A DNA stretch of 64,000 bases from a virus. Position 1 is the first letter of the stretch; each line of letters opens with the position of its first letter. The stretch covers positions 1 to 64,000 of IMG/VR virus record IMGVR_UViG_3300037147_000032. One strand, written 5' to 3'. The position numbers and the translations under genes are program-made. The notes under the pieces are model-generated. The model saw only the letters and a list, made by a program, of their open reading frames with translations, was not told the origin of the DNA and made no database searches. Positions 3 to 54,059 of this stretch are shown here, in pieces.

Positions 3-2048
<2,046 letters not shown>

Positions 2049-2049
2049 A

Positions 2050-2942
<893 letters not shown>

Positions 2943-2943
<1 letters not shown>

Positions 2944-3800
2944 TGACAACGTGTCAAGGATTGATGCTAGGCGATTGGCAAGGAGCTTCCGCAGGAGGGA
3001 CGTTTGCCATCTTCGCGCTGGGCGACAGCACTACGACCAACTCCTATACATATTCTGGCAACACGGTTGCTGCCGGGACAGTGCTGACGACTGCCCTCTC
3101 CGGAGGCGCGGCTGCGGGTAACGCTACTCTCGGTATTTTCGCGCTGGGCGGCAGCAGCGGCAGCACTACGACCAACTCCTATACATATTCTGGCAACACG
3201 GTTGCTGCCAGGACAGCGCTGTCAGGGGCCCTCTACTACGGCGCGGCTGCGGGTAACGCTACTCTCGGTATTTTCGCGCTGGGCGGCACAGGCGGCAGCA
3301 CTACGACCAACTCCTATACATATTCTGGCAACACGGTTGCTGCCGGGACAGCGCTGACGACTGCCTTCTACTTCGGCGCGGCTGCGGGTAACGCTACTCT
3401 CGGTATTTTCGCGCTGGGCGACAGCACTACGACCACCAACTCCTATACATATTCTGGCAACACGGTTGCTGCCGGGACAGTGCTGTCAGGGGTCTTCTAC
3501 TCCGGCGCGGCTGCGGGTAACGCTACTCTCGGTATTTTCACGCCGCTGGGCGGCAGCACTCCGACCAACTCCTATACATATTCTGGCAACACGGTTGCTG
3601 GCGGGACAGCGCTGACGACTGCCCTCTCCGCAGGCGCGGCTGCGGGTAACGCTACTCTCGGTATTTTCGCGCTGGGCGGCAGCACTACGACCAACTCCTA
3701 TACATATTCTGGCAACACGGTTGCTGCCGGGACAGCGCTGACGACTGCCCTCTACGGAGGCGCGGCTGCGAGCAACGGAACAACTGGGGTAAATATGTGA
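2943..3800 (+). CDS. Tandem-repeat (kelch-like) tail or surface protein
   Basis: 285 residues. The ATG at 2943 shares bases with the TGA of the preceding gene, implying coupled translation. Almost the whole protein is six copies of a 42-45 residue repeat with the core NSYTYSGNTVAAGT and GAAAGNATLGIF. Differences between copies are concentrated in the few residues after the GT and before GAAAG (TTALSG, SGALYY, TTAFYF, SGVFYS, TTALSA, TTALYG). This looks like a beta-propeller or beta-solenoid binding surface. No enzymatic motif is seen. Confidence 0.7.
3036..3780 (+). repeat. Six direct repeats of 126-135 bp
   Basis: Copies begin at 3036, 3171, 3306, 3435, 3564 and 3690 with an almost invariant block (accaactcctatacatattc). 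Periods are 135, 135, 129, 129 and 126 bp, all multiples of three, so copy number and linker length can change without breaking the frame. Confidence 0.9.
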
Positions 3801-3835
3801 TTGACAGCGTGGGGCTACGAGAGTAAGGAAATACG

Positions 3836-4435
3836 ATGGACAGTAAACCGCATCGAACCAATTCAGATTTCCAACTTCGCTATTTTATGGCCGGATCGTG
3901 TCACACGCCTGACGGCGCATGGATGCTGATGTACGGCCAGAAGATCATCATCGAGAGCAATCTCCGCAATGCGGAAGCGCAGCGCCTCCGTCGCGAAGCC
4001 AAGATCGAGGCAGCGGAATATGCGCTGACCCAGCCCATCCCGGATTTCCAGAGGAAATTAGCGATCGCTGACGTTCTGGAAGCCAACGCTGATCTCTCGA
4101 TCTGGGAGAACAACGTCAAGGCGGCGCAGGATGAGCTTGCGACCCTTGAAAAGCTGATGGCCGAACTGGAGCCGCAGCGGAAGTTTGCACATCTTCCGTT
4201 GCTGGAAGCCAACGAGGCGACGCAGCGTGGTGAATGGCTTGGCGAGCTAAAAGAGCGCGCGGAGAACTTCCTGCTTACGATGGGGACGATCCCGCACGAC
4301 CACTTCCATACTATGCGGTGTCACCCGGATTTTGAACAAGAGATCGTACCTCATATTCAGGCCATTACGACGAAAGTCAAATCAGGCGTGGATGTCCTCG
4401 GAAGTAGTACGCTTGCGCTGTCCAAACCTGAATAA
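3836..4435 (+). CDS. Conserved phage protein with coiled coil
   Basis: 199 residues, ATG preceded by AAGGAA. The central part (about 45-120) is rich in Glu, Ala, Leu and Arg and should form an alpha-helical coiled coil; a His-rich stretch (HDHFHTMRCH) lies near residue 165. It sits between fibre genes, so a fibre-associated or chaperone role is possible, but no family is recognised. Confidence 0.6.
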   Translation: MDSKPHRTNSDFQLRYFMAGSCHTPDGAWMLMYGQKIIIESNLRNAEAQRLRREAKIEAAEYALTQPIPDFQRKLAIADVLEANADLSIWENNVKAAQDELATLEKLMAELEPQRKFAHLPLLEANEATQRGEWLGELKERAENFLLTMGTIPHDHFHTMRCHPDFEQEIVPHIQAITTKVKSGVDVLGSSTLALSKPE

Positions 4436-4447
4436 GGAATATAAGAT

Positions 4448-5032
4448 ATGAACTACGTTATCGTAACTGGCGGCGCTGTCACGTCTCACATCACTGACGG
4501 CAGCAACATCCAATTTGCATCCAACGTCTTTCAGCCCGCGAGCACGTTATCAGCGGCGCAGATGACCCAGTTCGGTGTATTCTCTGTGACCCCCGCTGCT
4601 CAGCCTGCCTCTAATCCCCTGACGCAAACCTGTGTCGAGACCACGCCTACGCTTGTCGCTGGTGTCTGGACGCAGACATGGACAGTGAGCGCATTGCCAT
4701 CTGCACAGGCGGCGCAAAACCTCTACAGTGCCGCGATCGCGGCGGGCTTGGCAGTGGTCTCGACCGCGACACCCGCGCTCAACGGCACATATTCGGTAGC
4801 ACCGACTGCGGCTGCGAACATCACCGCCATTATGGCTGGAGCTGCCGCCGGCCTTGGGTTGCCGGGCAGCGGGACGACATTCGTCTACATGGACGCAAGC
4901 GGTTCGCCTCACACATTCACCGCCGCGCAATTCAGCACGCTCGCTGTCGCCGTTCGCGACTATGTCTATGCCCTCGATATGTTCGCTGCCGGGGTTGCCC
5001 CGCAGCCTGTCGCGGCTGTCACCATCCCATAG
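4448..5032 (+). CDS. Tail fibre-associated protein, DUF4376-like C-terminus
   Basis: 194 residues, ATG 13 bp after the previous stop. The last third (MDASGSPHTFTAAQFSTLA followed by a Val/Tyr-rich helix) resembles the DUF4376 type found in small proteins beside phage fibre genes, where a short sentence-like motif precedes an alpha-helical tail. A tail fibre assembly or tip role is inferred from that and from its location. Confidence 0.55.
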   Translation: MNYVIVTGGAVTSHITDGSNIQFASNVFQPASTLSAAQMTQFGVFSVTPAAQPASNPLTQTCVETTPTLVAGVWTQTWTVSALPSAQAAQNLYSAAIAAGLAVVSTATPALNGTYSVAPTAAANITAIMAGAAAGLGLPGSGTTFVYMDASGSPHTFTAAQFSTLAVAVRDYVYALDMFAAGVAPQPVAAVTIP

Positions 5033-5043
5033 GGAGAATTTTG

Positions 5044-5130
5044 ATGGCTGGAGCTAAAGGGCTTGCCCTTGCCCTTGCCCTAGTTGCCAGTTGTAGCCAC
5101 GGCGGTCGCCGTGGTAATCTGCGACTGTGA
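5044..5130 (+). CDS. Tiny lipoprotein-like peptide (28 aa)
   Basis: ATG at 5044 follows GGGAGA. The peptide has a Lys near the start, a Leu/Ala hydrophobic run and a VASC sequence that fits a lipobox, then a short basic tail. It could be a membrane-anchored phage lipopeptide, or an untranslated leader. Support is only the ribosome site and the signal-like sequence. Confidence 0.35.
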   Translation: MAGAKGLALALALVASCSHGGRRGNLRL

Positions 5131-5188
5131 ATTGGGAGCCATCACCAATTATGGCATGTCCCTTGCACACTTTTAGGAGAACACCTCT

Positions 5189-5551
5189 ATGGCTAATCCA
5201 TCAATCAAGCGTCTCTACGGTCCGGCCGCCTTGTCGGCGACCCTGACGACCAACCTCGTATCGACGGGAGCATTCTCCGGCGGTCCGCTCGGTGTTTATG
5301 GCTACGACATCGTCAAGCATATCCATGTCGTGAACAAGACCGGTGGGGCGGTAACGTTTTCGCTCTGGATCGGCGCGACCGCTGGTAACGCGGCGGGCAC
5401 CGAGTTCTTCAATGCTCACTCGGTCCCGGCGAACTCCGAATTCGATTGGTACGGCAACCTGAAGATGCTGTCCACCGACTTCCTCGTCGGCGGTGCCTCG
5501 GCCGGGACCTCGCTGACAATCGTCATCGAAGGTGAAAGCTACGTCGTCTGA
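5189..5551 (+). CDS. Small virion protein (decoration or head-associated candidate)
   Basis: 120 residues, ATG after TTTAGGAG. It is beta-rich (SLWIGATAGNAAGTEFF, LTIVIEGESYVV) with no charged catalytic pattern. It sits alone between two gene groups and is followed by a strong terminator, which suits an abundant structural protein. The specific role is not determined. Confidence 0.55.
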   Translation: MANPSIKRLYGPAALSATLTTNLVSTGAFSGGPLGVYGYDIVKHIHVVNKTGGAVTFSLWIGATAGNAAGTEFFNAHSVPANSEFDWYGNLKMLSTDFLVGGASAGTSLTIVIEGESYVV

Positions 5552-50924: not shown

Positions 50925-53900
50925 TTATTTCCGAAGCCGGGGCCCTGCCCAGCCTTCGGCGGCGATTGGCATTCCGGGACACCAGACCGGCACGATGGAC
51001 ATGATACACTCAAATTCCTTCACTGTGCAACTGCCTATTGCAGCTTGGGCGATGACCTCATCGTGTATTGATAAAAGCAGATCGAACTCAGGCATTTCGT
51101 CTACACGAAACATAGCTTCGGCGAGAAGATCGCGCGAGCTAGCCTGATCGTAGTTCTCAACGAGCGAACCTCCGTGCGTGCCGCAACGCTTCCATTTTTT
51201 AGTATAGGTATCCCTGCCCATGAAAGACAGATGCGGCGAGACAAAACTCTCCGGCGGATCAGGCAGCAAGCGCTTGTGTTGTTTCTCCGCGAGCTTCTCC
51301 GCATGCCAGCGGACGCGATGCTGTGGTACGCTCTTCTTGGCTGGAAAGTTGACAGTCGTCGGCTTCCCGCGCTCATTGATGGCAGCGAAGCGGTACGTGA
51401 CGCGCTGGCGGACTTGCGGATCGAGATAGGCGAGCAGGCGGCCCGAGGGCAGGCGGCAATGCAGGAAGCGGCCGGCCATGAAGTAGCTGACCGAGCCAAT
51501 GCCGAACTCATCCCCGCCGCAATAGTATTCCCCGCCGCAATAGTATTCCCCGCCGGGATCGAGCACGGCGGAGATCGCAGCCTTCTCGGTGTCGCGCCAG
51601 AGTTGGGGGATTTCGGGGTAGAGGTCTTTGCGATAAATGCGCACTACTTCCTGACAAAACTCATCCTCAAGCCAGATACCCTCATCCGCCAACACAGTGG
51701 CTTGGAATTTTTCCCAGCCCATCGCGTAGCCCAGCCCGAGTATTGAGTTATGAACTAGAAGCGGTCCGCGATCAGTCAGGATTGTGAAGCGATGACGCGG
51801 CCCCGCATTTGCAAGATCGTAAACATGCTTCAAGTTTGTTGATGCGTTCCTGCATCTCAAAAATCTGGCGTCGGTTTTGTAAGTTGACTTGTTTGGTACA
51901 GAACCGTAAATTACCCGGCTCATAGCCTCGCTCATTCTTGATCCGATCAAGCTCAAGAGCGGGTTGATCCCAACCGTCAAGCGTGATGATATACTGCAAG
52001 AACTGTCGTCGATCTGTACGCCATGGTTCATGAACGAAGATACCTCTTCCTCCATAGTGGTGGAACACATCGCATGTCTTGGTGTGACAGCGTTGAATGC
52101 AACTTGAGATGCGATTGAGAAGCCGAGCCCTATCAGCTTCATCAGGGACGATGTCTGCGTATCCGTAATACTTCTTACGCCAATAGGCGGCTTTCTTTTT
52201 GGCGCATGCATTGCATCGTGTAGACTTTCCGGACAAGAGGTTGGTTGACAAAAGGGAGTGAACCGAAGCCCCGCATGAGCATTGGACGAGCATGCGAGCA
52301 ACGCCTCCACGCTCTCCGTAGGTATATCCAACCACGGTAAGTTCTCCGAACCGTGTCCCAATGCTCGGCATTGTAATTTTTCGTTTTGCGCCACATCGAG
52401 GGCCGAATGCCAACGGCAGCCCTCCGATATCGGATGGTCGTAAGTCATATCTACACCCATCATATCGAGTGTTGGTTTCGTACCTTGGTCTAGTAGCCCC
52501 TGATGACTTACCCATTCAATCCCATCCCATAACTGATCTTCTAACGTGATCTTGGTTATAGGATGGAAGCCTCGCCGCGTCAAGACAAGAGTATCGGCCC
52601 CGAGGCATTTCTTTCCGAGGGCTCGCTCGGTTTTGTCAGCTTTGGTGATCTGACGTTTATAGATCGCGCTTCCCATATCGATGTATGGGTCACCGCCGCT
52701 GTTGAACAGGTCGAGCAGACGTGAGCAGCCCGACAGCCACGCGAGCTTGCGGGCTTCGATGGCGTTGAAGTCGGCGGCGTATAGCTCGTTCCCCGGTCGT
52801 GCGATCAGTGCGCCACGGCATGCCTTGGCGAGCATGACCATCGGCTCGCCCCAGATCATCGTGATCAGATCATGGTCGAGCCCCATGATATCATCCCACG
52901 CTTCAACCATATCCTTGGAGTAGCCACGAACGAAGTTGTGCGGCTGGACACCCTTGCCAGACCACCGGCCGGTTCGATCCGCGCCGTTGAAGAGCATGAT
53001 ATCGTGGAGCGCATCATCGTCCGGACAGACACTGTTGCGCATCTGCTTATACTTGGCGACAGATGACCGGTTGACTTCCATGCAGATACGGAGCGACCGC
53101 TCGATATTCTCCGCTTCGGGACCGAGCGCGTCCCACTTCTCCCGGGCAGCGGGGGCGTTGTGCTCACGGGCCTCTTCGCCAGCCTTGGTCGGAACCCCGT
53201 CGAGCGCAAAACTGAGCGTGTCGGCCTTGGTGTCGAGCAAGGGCTCGCCACCGACCTCAGCGAGCCGCTCATTCACCCATTTCAGGAAGGCTTGGCGTTG
53301 GGAGCCCTTCTGGATAGCCCCACCGGTGAGGTCGCTAAGCTCTTCATTGAGCCTCTTGGCCTCTTGGCCTGCATATTCGAAAGCCGTATTGGCGCCCGAG
53401 ATGTCGAGCGCGATGCCTCGAAGGTTCATCCGCTGGTCCATAAGCCAGTATTCACGTTCGCGTGGGATCATTTCTGGACAGAAATTGGACAAGCCGCGTT
53501 CGGCCCGCACGTCCTGTTTGCAGTATTCCCAGTTTGCGCGGTGCTCGTGCTCTTCCTCACAGAACTCTATAATTCCGTCGCCACGTTTCTTGCCACGTCG
53601 GACCATCGGCTTCGAGAGCTTATTGATCAGACGTCTGCCATCCGCAATCTTACGGTCGGGTAATCCGAGCGCGTCAACGGCGTCATCGAGAGAGCGGGGC
53701 AGAGACAAACATGAGGCTTTTGCCGCCGAACAGTACAACTGGTCCAGCGTGAGCTTGACATTGAATTCGGGAAATTCGACTGTGAAGCACTCATTCCATA
53801 TATTGAATTCGAAGCCGGCATTGTGTGCTTCGACTGGCTCACCGCTTCGGATGCGTTCGATTAGCTCGTCAGGGCGCTTGCTCTTGGGCATCGGCGTGGC

Positions 53901-54059
53901 CCATGTCGGGTGGGCACGGTGCCAGAGATAAACTTTTTCCTCCTGATCGAATGACCAAGCAAGGCAAAGTGCTTGCGTGCTCGTGTCGAGCGCGTAGCGA
54001 CGCGCGCCCCAACGTTTTAAGTCAGCAGCACTTCGGGTTTCAAAGTCCAAGAAAATCAC
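50925..54059 (-). CDS. PolA-type DNA polymerase with intein
   Basis: 1044 residues with intein, 757 after splicing. GTG start overlaps the upstream stop. A DEDDy 3'-5' exonuclease spans residues 1-200 (MIFLDFETRSA; AHNAGFEFNIWN; YCKQDVRAE). Polymerase motif A is ADFNAIEARKLAW, motif B is RALGKK interrupted by the intein then SILGLGYAMG, motif C is LLLSIHDEVIA. It replicates the phage DNA and is active only after splicing. A six-residue GGEYYC duplication lies in the fingers-palm region. Confidence 0.9.
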   Translation of the reverse strand: MIFLDFETRSAADLKRWGARRYALDTSTQALCLAWSFDQEEKVYLWHRAHPTWATPMPKSKRPDELIERIRSGEPVEAHNAGFEFNIWNECFTVEFPEFNVKLTLDQLYCSAAKASCLSLPRSLDDAVDALGLPDRKIADGRRLINKLSKPMVRRGKKRGDGIIEFCEEEHEHRANWEYCKQDVRAERGLSNFCPEMIPREREYWLMDQRMNLRGIALDISGANTAFEYAGQEAKRLNEELSDLTGGAIQKGSQRQAFLKWVNERLAEVGGEPLLDTKADTLSFALDGVPTKAGEEAREHNAPAAREKWDALGPEAENIERSLRICMEVNRSSVAKYKQMRNSVCPDDDALHDIMLFNGADRTGRWSGKGVQPHNFVRGYSKDMVEAWDDIMGLDHDLITMIWGEPMVMLAKACRGALIARPGNELYAADFNAIEARKLAWLSGCSRLLDLFNSGGDPYIDMGSAIYKRQITKADKTERALGKKCLGADTLVLTRRGFHPITKITLEDQLWDGIEWVSHQGLLDQGTKPTLDMMGVDMTYDHPISEGCRWHSALDVAQNEKLQCRALGHGSENLPWLDIPTESVEALLACSSNAHAGLRFTPFCQPTSCPESLHDAMHAPKRKPPIGVRSITDTQTSSLMKLIGLGFSIASQVAFNAVTPRHAMCSTTMEEEVSSFMNHGVQIDDSSCSISSRLTVGINPLLSLIGSRMSEAMSRVIYGSVPNKSTYKTDARFLRCRNASTNLKHVYDLANAGPRHRFTILTDRGPLLVHNSILGLGYAMGWEKFQATVLADEGIWLEDEFCQEVVRIYRKDLYPEIPQLWRDTEKAAISAVLDPGGEYYCGGEYYCGGDEFGIGSVSYFMAGRFLHCRLPSGRLLAYLDPQVRQRVTYRFAAINERGKPTTVNFPAKKSVPQHRVRWHAEKLAEKQHKRLLPDPPESFVSPHLSFMGRDTYTKKWKRCGTHGGSLVENYDQASSRDLLAEAMFRVDEMPEFDLLLSIHDEVIAQAAIGSCTVKEFECIMSIVPVWCPGMPIAAEGWAGPRLRK
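51514..51549 (-). repeat. Perfect 18-bp tandem duplication in the polymerase gene
   Basis: Two adjacent copies (51514-51531, 51532-51549) encode GGEYYC twice. The perfect identity indicates a recent in-frame slippage. Confidence 0.85.
51747..52607 (-). mobile_element. Intein in polymerase motif B
   Basis: 287 residues. It starts with Cys1 (CLGADTLVLTRRGFHPIT, block A), has block B TYDHPISEGCRWH with its His, and ends with VYDLANAGPRHRFTILTDRG then LLVHN (blocks F and G), followed by Ser+1. All splicing residues (Cys1, block B His, penultimate His, Asn, Ser+1) are present. The central ~180 residues look unlike any intein domain because that DNA encodes an endonuclease in another frame. Confidence 0.9.
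51772..52371 (-). CDS. HNH endonuclease nested inside the intein, other frame
   Basis: 199 residues from ATG 52371 (MPSIGTRFGELTVV); a longer frame starts at ATG 52515 with a G-rich ribosome-like site. Zinc-finger start with CSCGASVHS and CNACAKKK, then RCHTKTCDVFHHYGGRGIFV, LELDRIKNERGYEPGNLRFC and QVNLQNRRQ, the typical phage HNH homing domain. It lies wholly within the 51747-52607 intein, in a different frame from the polymerase. Confidence 0.85.
   Translation of the reverse strand: MPSIGTRFGELTVVGYTYGERGGVARMLVQCSCGASVHSLLSTNLLSGKSTRCNACAKKKAAYWRKKYYGYADIVPDEADRARLLNRISSCIQRCHTKTCDVFHHYGGRGIFVHEPWRTDRRQFLQYIITLDGWDQPALELDRIKNERGYEPGNLRFCTKQVNLQNRRQIFEMQERINKLEACLRSCKCGAASSLHNPD

Follow-up and report, generated by a model that had tools for sequence, protein, structure and literature searches.

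How can a single insert in a phage DNA polymerase gene leave the host reading frame intact and, on the same DNA, hold an HNH-family endonuclease gene in another frame? This question is raised by a locus in the window analysed here, a stretch of 64,000 nucleotides that belongs to an IMG/VR virus record of 64.5 kb (IMGVR_UViG_3300037147_000032). The ORF that carries the insert matched the Pfam DNA_pol_A and PHROG DNA polymerase families. A sequence-only reading of the locus had described an 861-bp insert with complete intein ends, placed exactly at polymerase motif B, through which the polymerase frame remains open, and our analysis bore out each of these points (Table 1).

Table 1. Positions of the polymerase, intein and HNH-family features in the window.
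Feature	Position	Strand	Details
Family A DNA polymerase precursor ORF (exteins and intein)	50925..54059	-	1044 aa, GTG start, open throughout
Intein, Cys1 to Asn287, Ser at +1	51747..52607	-	287 aa, inserted at polymerase motif B
N-terminal splicing half, residues 1-93	52329..52607	-	Predicted Hint fold, pLDDT ~97; match to PI-MtuI RecA mini-intein
Linker in intein frame, residues 94-254	51846..52328	-	Predicted disordered; same DNA as most of the HNH core
C-terminal splicing half, residues about 255-287	51747..51845	-	Block F VYDLANAGPRHRF, block G LLVHN
Shine-Dalgarno-like GGGATGGGA upstream of proposed HNH start	52520..52528	-	Also codes W-D-G of the intein
Proposed HNH start codon ATG	52513..52515	-	Overlaps E-W codons of intein motif LWDGxEWV
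HNH-family endonuclease ORF, -1 frame	51772..52515	-	247 codons; ATG 52515-52513, stop TGA 51774-51772
HNH core: zinc-finger and YGGRGI/DRI/YEPGN region	51775..52371	-	AF2 pLDDT 91

The insert lies between ERALGKK and SILGLGY and begins CLGADTLVLT. It has the hallmarks of a class 1-type intein: Cys1, a TxxH block B (here TYDH), block F, a block G that closes with His-Asn, and Ser at +1. C1, T55, H58 and N287 were invariant in the intein alignment, and H286 was nearly so. In the AlphaFold2 model of the intein frame, the two end segments (residues 1-93 and 256-287) both reached a pLDDT of ~97 and are predicted to adopt the Hint fold, and most of residues 94-254 scored below 50; this predicted disorder agrees with the earlier remark that the linker translation resembles no intein domain. 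Inteins and further domains of Hint type made up most of the top Foldseek matches of the model, the best of which had E = 2e-3 (none fell below 1e-3), and a profile comparison matched the intein to the PI-MtuI RecA intein (E = 1.7e-4). The sequence suggests that the intein undergoes protein splicing. Further downstream, the C-extein carries an 18-bp tandem duplication at 51515-51553 (GEYYCG twice).

In the -1 frame, the insert contains an ORF that starts within the N-intein and stops within block F of the C-intein. Its product carries C-x-C-G...C-x-x-C followed by YGGRGI...ELDRI...YEPGNLRF, and it matched phrog_374, 'HNH endonuclease' (E = 8.9e-34), and phrog_2081 (9e-19); relatives in this frame are named HNH in GenBank. 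AlphaFold2 modelled the protein with a mean pLDDT of 91. No Pfam match was found for it, and comparison with the PDB gave no confident match by fold and no meaningful match by profile. Where classical HNH motifs have the catalytic His, this family has an invariant Asp142-Arg143, and no His is invariant; the canonical catalytic His of the beta-beta-alpha metal motif is missing from the window protein, and DRI is found in other family members as well. Read as a motif, the Asp-Arg position may be equivalent to the classical catalytic His. Since neither a Pfam match nor the classical His is present, the nuclease assignment rests on the PHROG and GenBank family names. The zinc-finger and HNH-family protein postulated from the letters alone was recovered, and the accompanying picture of a gene confined to the middle of the intein needs amendment: the core does lie in linker DNA, but the ORF also overlaps both splicing halves.

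To place the locus among its relatives, we searched phage records and then scanned IMG/VR and GTDB contigs with profiles. The arrangement recurs, its HNH gene always keeping this frame relationship to the polymerase, in Vibrio phage 97.13, EBPR siphovirus 2, Pseudomonas phage MR14, Salmonella phage SETP3, Shigella phage EP23 and Sodalis phage SO-1. After removal of identical DNA, 84 distinct inteins carried the HNH gene at offset 2, and the 81 with a full N-terminus formed 53 clusters at 70% and 31 at 60% HNH identity. Across the HNH cores of the 84, the polymerase frame contained no stop codon and the third frame 1005, with 3.15 (synonymous shuffling) or 5.24 (recoding with extein codon usage) polymerase-frame stops expected per gene. 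For the window alone, zero stops had a probability of ~0.12 under within-gene synonymous shuffling, which is conservative, and of ~0.01 under recoding with extein codon usage. HNH relatives that do not lie in inteins of this kind (L110, L123, L127-L131 and second copies from L010 and L122; five in annotated genes) had 7-15 stops in the equivalent frame. These stop counts, together with the codon-position signal described below, rule out a chance ORF. The comparison of sequences confirms that the double-frame use noticed in the window, with one stretch kept stop-free in both frames, belongs to a conserved class shared by scores of unrelated phages and is not a single case. One Jerseyvirus-type copy (L121) has its N- and C-intein in different frames and is broken or mis-sequenced.

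We consider it very probable that the phage PolA gene carries a two-layer homing element, with an intein in the polymerase frame and an HNH-family homing endonuclease gene in the -1 frame. In the first layer, the end Hint halves of a minimal class 1-type intein would fold together and self-excise; the middle would be a mere stop-free disordered linker, with intein-frame stops selected against because the polymerase must be completed. The second layer would be a separate zinc-finger/HNH-family homing endonuclease gene that is initiated internally at the ATG over Glu-Trp of LWDGxEWV, ends inside block F and has its amino-acid sequence maintained in its own frame. We infer that its product would cleave motif B of polA copies that have no intein, and that the entire element would then be copied into the break during repair. 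Deletion of the HNH gene would let the intein frame survive as a mini-intein, and after breakage of the intein frame related loci would persist in the form of split inteins that flank the HNH gene.

In 78 of 81 inteins, the start proposed for the second layer (ATG 55, GTG 16, TTG 7) sits at one place, where it overlaps the Trp codon of LWDGxEWV, and from there the HNH frame is open through to the core in nearly all of the 81 loci. HNH starts may differ in the exceptions, namely L094 and L098, where both the Trp and a start at EW are missing, and L027 and L109, which have one stop between start and core. The preceding fourfold codon ends in A, giving ATG, in 10 of 12 cases against 1.8 expected from the exteins (p = 3e-7, uncorrected for relatedness). 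Duplexes of the upstream GGGAYGG with the anti-Shine-Dalgarno sequence had a mean energy of -6.9 kcal/mol, compared with -2.7 kcal/mol in the exteins; as the Shine-Dalgarno-like sequence is largely forced by the G-rich WDG codons, this is weak evidence. Translation of the HNH gene probably begins internally at the EW ATG. Alternatively, programmed -1 ribosomal frameshifting could yield an IntN-HNH fusion, and in nearly all loci the -1 frame does remain open upstream into the N-intein. However, no more than 12 of the 78 loci contain a usable X XXY YYZ heptamer, its position varies and none is conserved, and both the fixed position of the start codon and the preference for A at fourfold sites speak against frameshifting, which we regard as improbable.

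For the HNH gene in the -1 frame, the distribution of substitutions indicates which product is conserved where. We compared 85 pairs of 70-98% identity, which are phylogenetically non-independent, by codon position. At polymerase positions 1/2/3, differences amounted to 0.17/0.12/0.48 and 0.21/0.15/0.49 in the exteins, 0.14/0.10/0.33 in N-intein-only DNA and 0.08/0.05/0.38 in C-intein-only DNA. The HNH core gave 0.10/0.38/0.17, with the peak at HNH codon position 3 (0.383 vs 0.103 and 0.165), and the two overlap zones gave damped or intein-like patterns (0.14/0.15/0.23 and 0.10/0.10/0.28). This pattern implies that conservation acts on the HNH protein in the centre and on the intein at the ends, so the stronger constraint once suggested for the HNH frame holds for the middle of the insert, with the intein frame prevailing on both sides. 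Wobble-T was not depleted in the HNH core, which leads us to reject selection on linker composition and leaves stop avoidance as the sole effect seen on the linker. Such a strong purifying pattern in the HNH frame makes it highly unlikely that the HNH gene is a decaying passenger of an intein that alone is functional; loss of the gene in some relatives (mini-inteins) and a stop in the HNH core of L122 would fit decay, but that stop is the sole internal one among the distinct inteins scanned.

Splicing could also occur at the RNA level. HNH ORFs are common in phage introns, and in Sodalis phage SO-1 (L006; gp38/gp39) the nested HNH gene at gp39 is annotated as an intron, with a GenBank note reading 'type I self-splicing intron'. 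A group I intron with an HNH ORF nevertheless has very little probability, given the complete intein blocks and a polymerase frame that is always open. No Rfam group I intron matched the window or eight homologs at permissive thresholds, nor was a conserved intron RNA found; for SO-1 itself, the intein blocks and the lack of an Rfam intron argue for an intein. Finally, an ordinary in-frame HNH intein in which two compensating indels (sequencing error or recent frameshift) mimic separate frames is formally possible for a single metagenomic contig, but its probability is next to nil, being refuted by homologs: offset and open frame are identical in the 84 distinct inteins, isolate genomes included, and no in-frame endonuclease was found in two N-intein searches, in each of which the best-matching 80 loci were kept. 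The first sample comprised 70+2 offset-2, four offset-1 and four mini loci and the second 53+2 offset-2, 14 offset-1, four split and six mini loci and one locus cut by the contig end; both hold the best matches to this intein type and are therefore not representative of inteins at large. A polymerase frame broken in reality and relatives with a normal in-frame endonuclease, raised by the sequence-only reading as threats to its own interpretation, were thus both looked for, and neither turned up.

The two-layer arrangement has counterparts in the other out-of-frame register. An HNH gene at offset 1 occupies the motif-B site in Spirochaetaceae, Allobaculum and Streptococcus phage loci, and a different HNH type, likewise at offset 1, occupies a second PolA site (between YGGK and CENxxQA, and similar) in APSE-3 and many contigs. 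In L031 and L046, the motif-B offset-2 HNH gene is accompanied by a second, downstream HNH gene with the opposite frame open, so the polymerases with two HNH genes (L031, L046/L047) probably contain two overprinted inteins. In another polymerase (L233, host ORF 1645-5394), a second intein start, YGGKL/CIAAGTPVLT (slash, insertion point), follows the motif-B intein. We think it likelier that the two registers reflect independent captures than that a single ancestor changed frame, since a newly shifted frame would at first contain many stops. We lean slightly towards a broader generalization, in which phage PolA inteins would include a large class that is overprinted as a rule: at least two endonuclease types would have been captured independently, at several PolA sites and in either of the out-of-frame registers; in the main class, the DNA coding for LWDGxEW would also provide the start codon and the ribosome-binding site; and host-frame breakage would give rise to split inteins.

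The distribution of the element points to mobility. The site is empty in L011-L023 (GKK/AILGLGY). It is empty in the twelve polymerases nearest to that of the window (61-77% identical), and the next one (L030, 57%) has the intein; the insertion is precise, in frame and absent from close homologs. The closest HNH (62%, L060) resides in a polymerase 26% identical to the window polymerase, and HNH and extein identities correlate weakly (Spearman 0.31). These sequence relationships demonstrate horizontal spread of the element, for which homing would be the likely route. Other segments vary among these polymerases as well: L016, L018, L021 and L022 have unrelated-looking stretches of 70-79 aa after residue 184 (L011 frame) that are absent from the window, and L020, a close relative of the window polymerase, has an intein-like in-frame insert of ~305 aa (PVSGDAEVLT...TGN) after residue 386 in the same numbering.

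Derivative states were also found. Three mini-inteins (L163, L189, L190), 408-414 nt long up to the +1 residue and intact in the intein frame, still have, on either side of a deletion, the two end portions of the HNH gene at offset 2, which identifies them as deletion derivatives. The capture of a free-standing HNH gene by a mini-intein, as first proposed, predicted relatives without the central segment; the segment is indeed gone from these three, but the remnants mark a loss. Because the closely read minis carry HNH remnants, an original recipient of mini-intein type stays a supposition. In L243, L248/L252 and L277, IntN ends at a stop, the HNH gene forms its own ORF, and IntC lies with the rest of PolA in a separate ORF; these loci look like split inteins around the HNH gene.

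Among known systems, the ShiLan domain/Pacc40 insertion is an out-of-frame HNH insertion with stop-free read-through in the host frame and a homing-like distribution in phages, has neither intein splicing blocks nor a detectable ribosome-binding site, and has been proposed to remain part of the methylase (Arsenault, Gosselin, Gogarten 2025, PMC11855218). The window element shares with it the stop-free host frame across the insert, the HNH gene hidden in another frame and the homing-like phage distribution, but differs in that both complete Hint halves, as modelled by AF2, flank the HNH gene and the hosts are PolA genes. In canonical inteins the endonuclease usually sits in frame between blocks B and F (PMC6801210). 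The window element resembles these (e.g. PI-SceI) in its self-splicing-type Hint halves and in the placement of the endonuclease between the same blocks; unlike them, it has the endonuclease as a separate gene, in another frame and outside the spliced-out polypeptide. The 'fractured genes' of Dassa et al. 2009 are reportedly split inteins whose halves are separated by a free-standing endonuclease gene. They too keep the endonuclease gene separate from the intein halves, and L243, L248/L252 and L277, where the host gene is in two ORFs, share their layout; the window and most relatives instead have one continuous intein ORF overlapped by the endonuclease gene. We judge the overprinted intein to be a variation on known systems, with ShiLan and the fractured-gene split inteins as its nearest published relatives. 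Literature searches found no description of an intein with an overprinted endonuclease; a 2025 preprint by Gosselin, Arsenault and Gogarten on actinobacteriophage inteins with 'non-canonical architecture' (bioRxiv 10.1101/2025.01.02.630785) may, to judge from its title, cover related arrangements and overlap with the present findings, so priority is uncertain.

In this element, nature provides a clean and replicated example of protein splicing and DNA cleavage, two functions with no relation to each other, being kept in different frames of the same DNA. With the full series of states available (empty site, overprinted intein, deletion-derived mini-intein, split intein), the homing cycle and the origin of split inteins become directly testable, for example in SETP3 and EP23. 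Some phage inteins catalogued without an endonuclease do carry one: in well-known Salmonella phages the HNH frame is mostly unannotated, and the Jerseyvirus PolA intein of vB_SenS-Ent1 (NC_019539), a member of the same element family, is recorded in GenBank as a mature peptide, 'intein', 'encoding splicing domains', with the overlapping HNH gene left without annotation.
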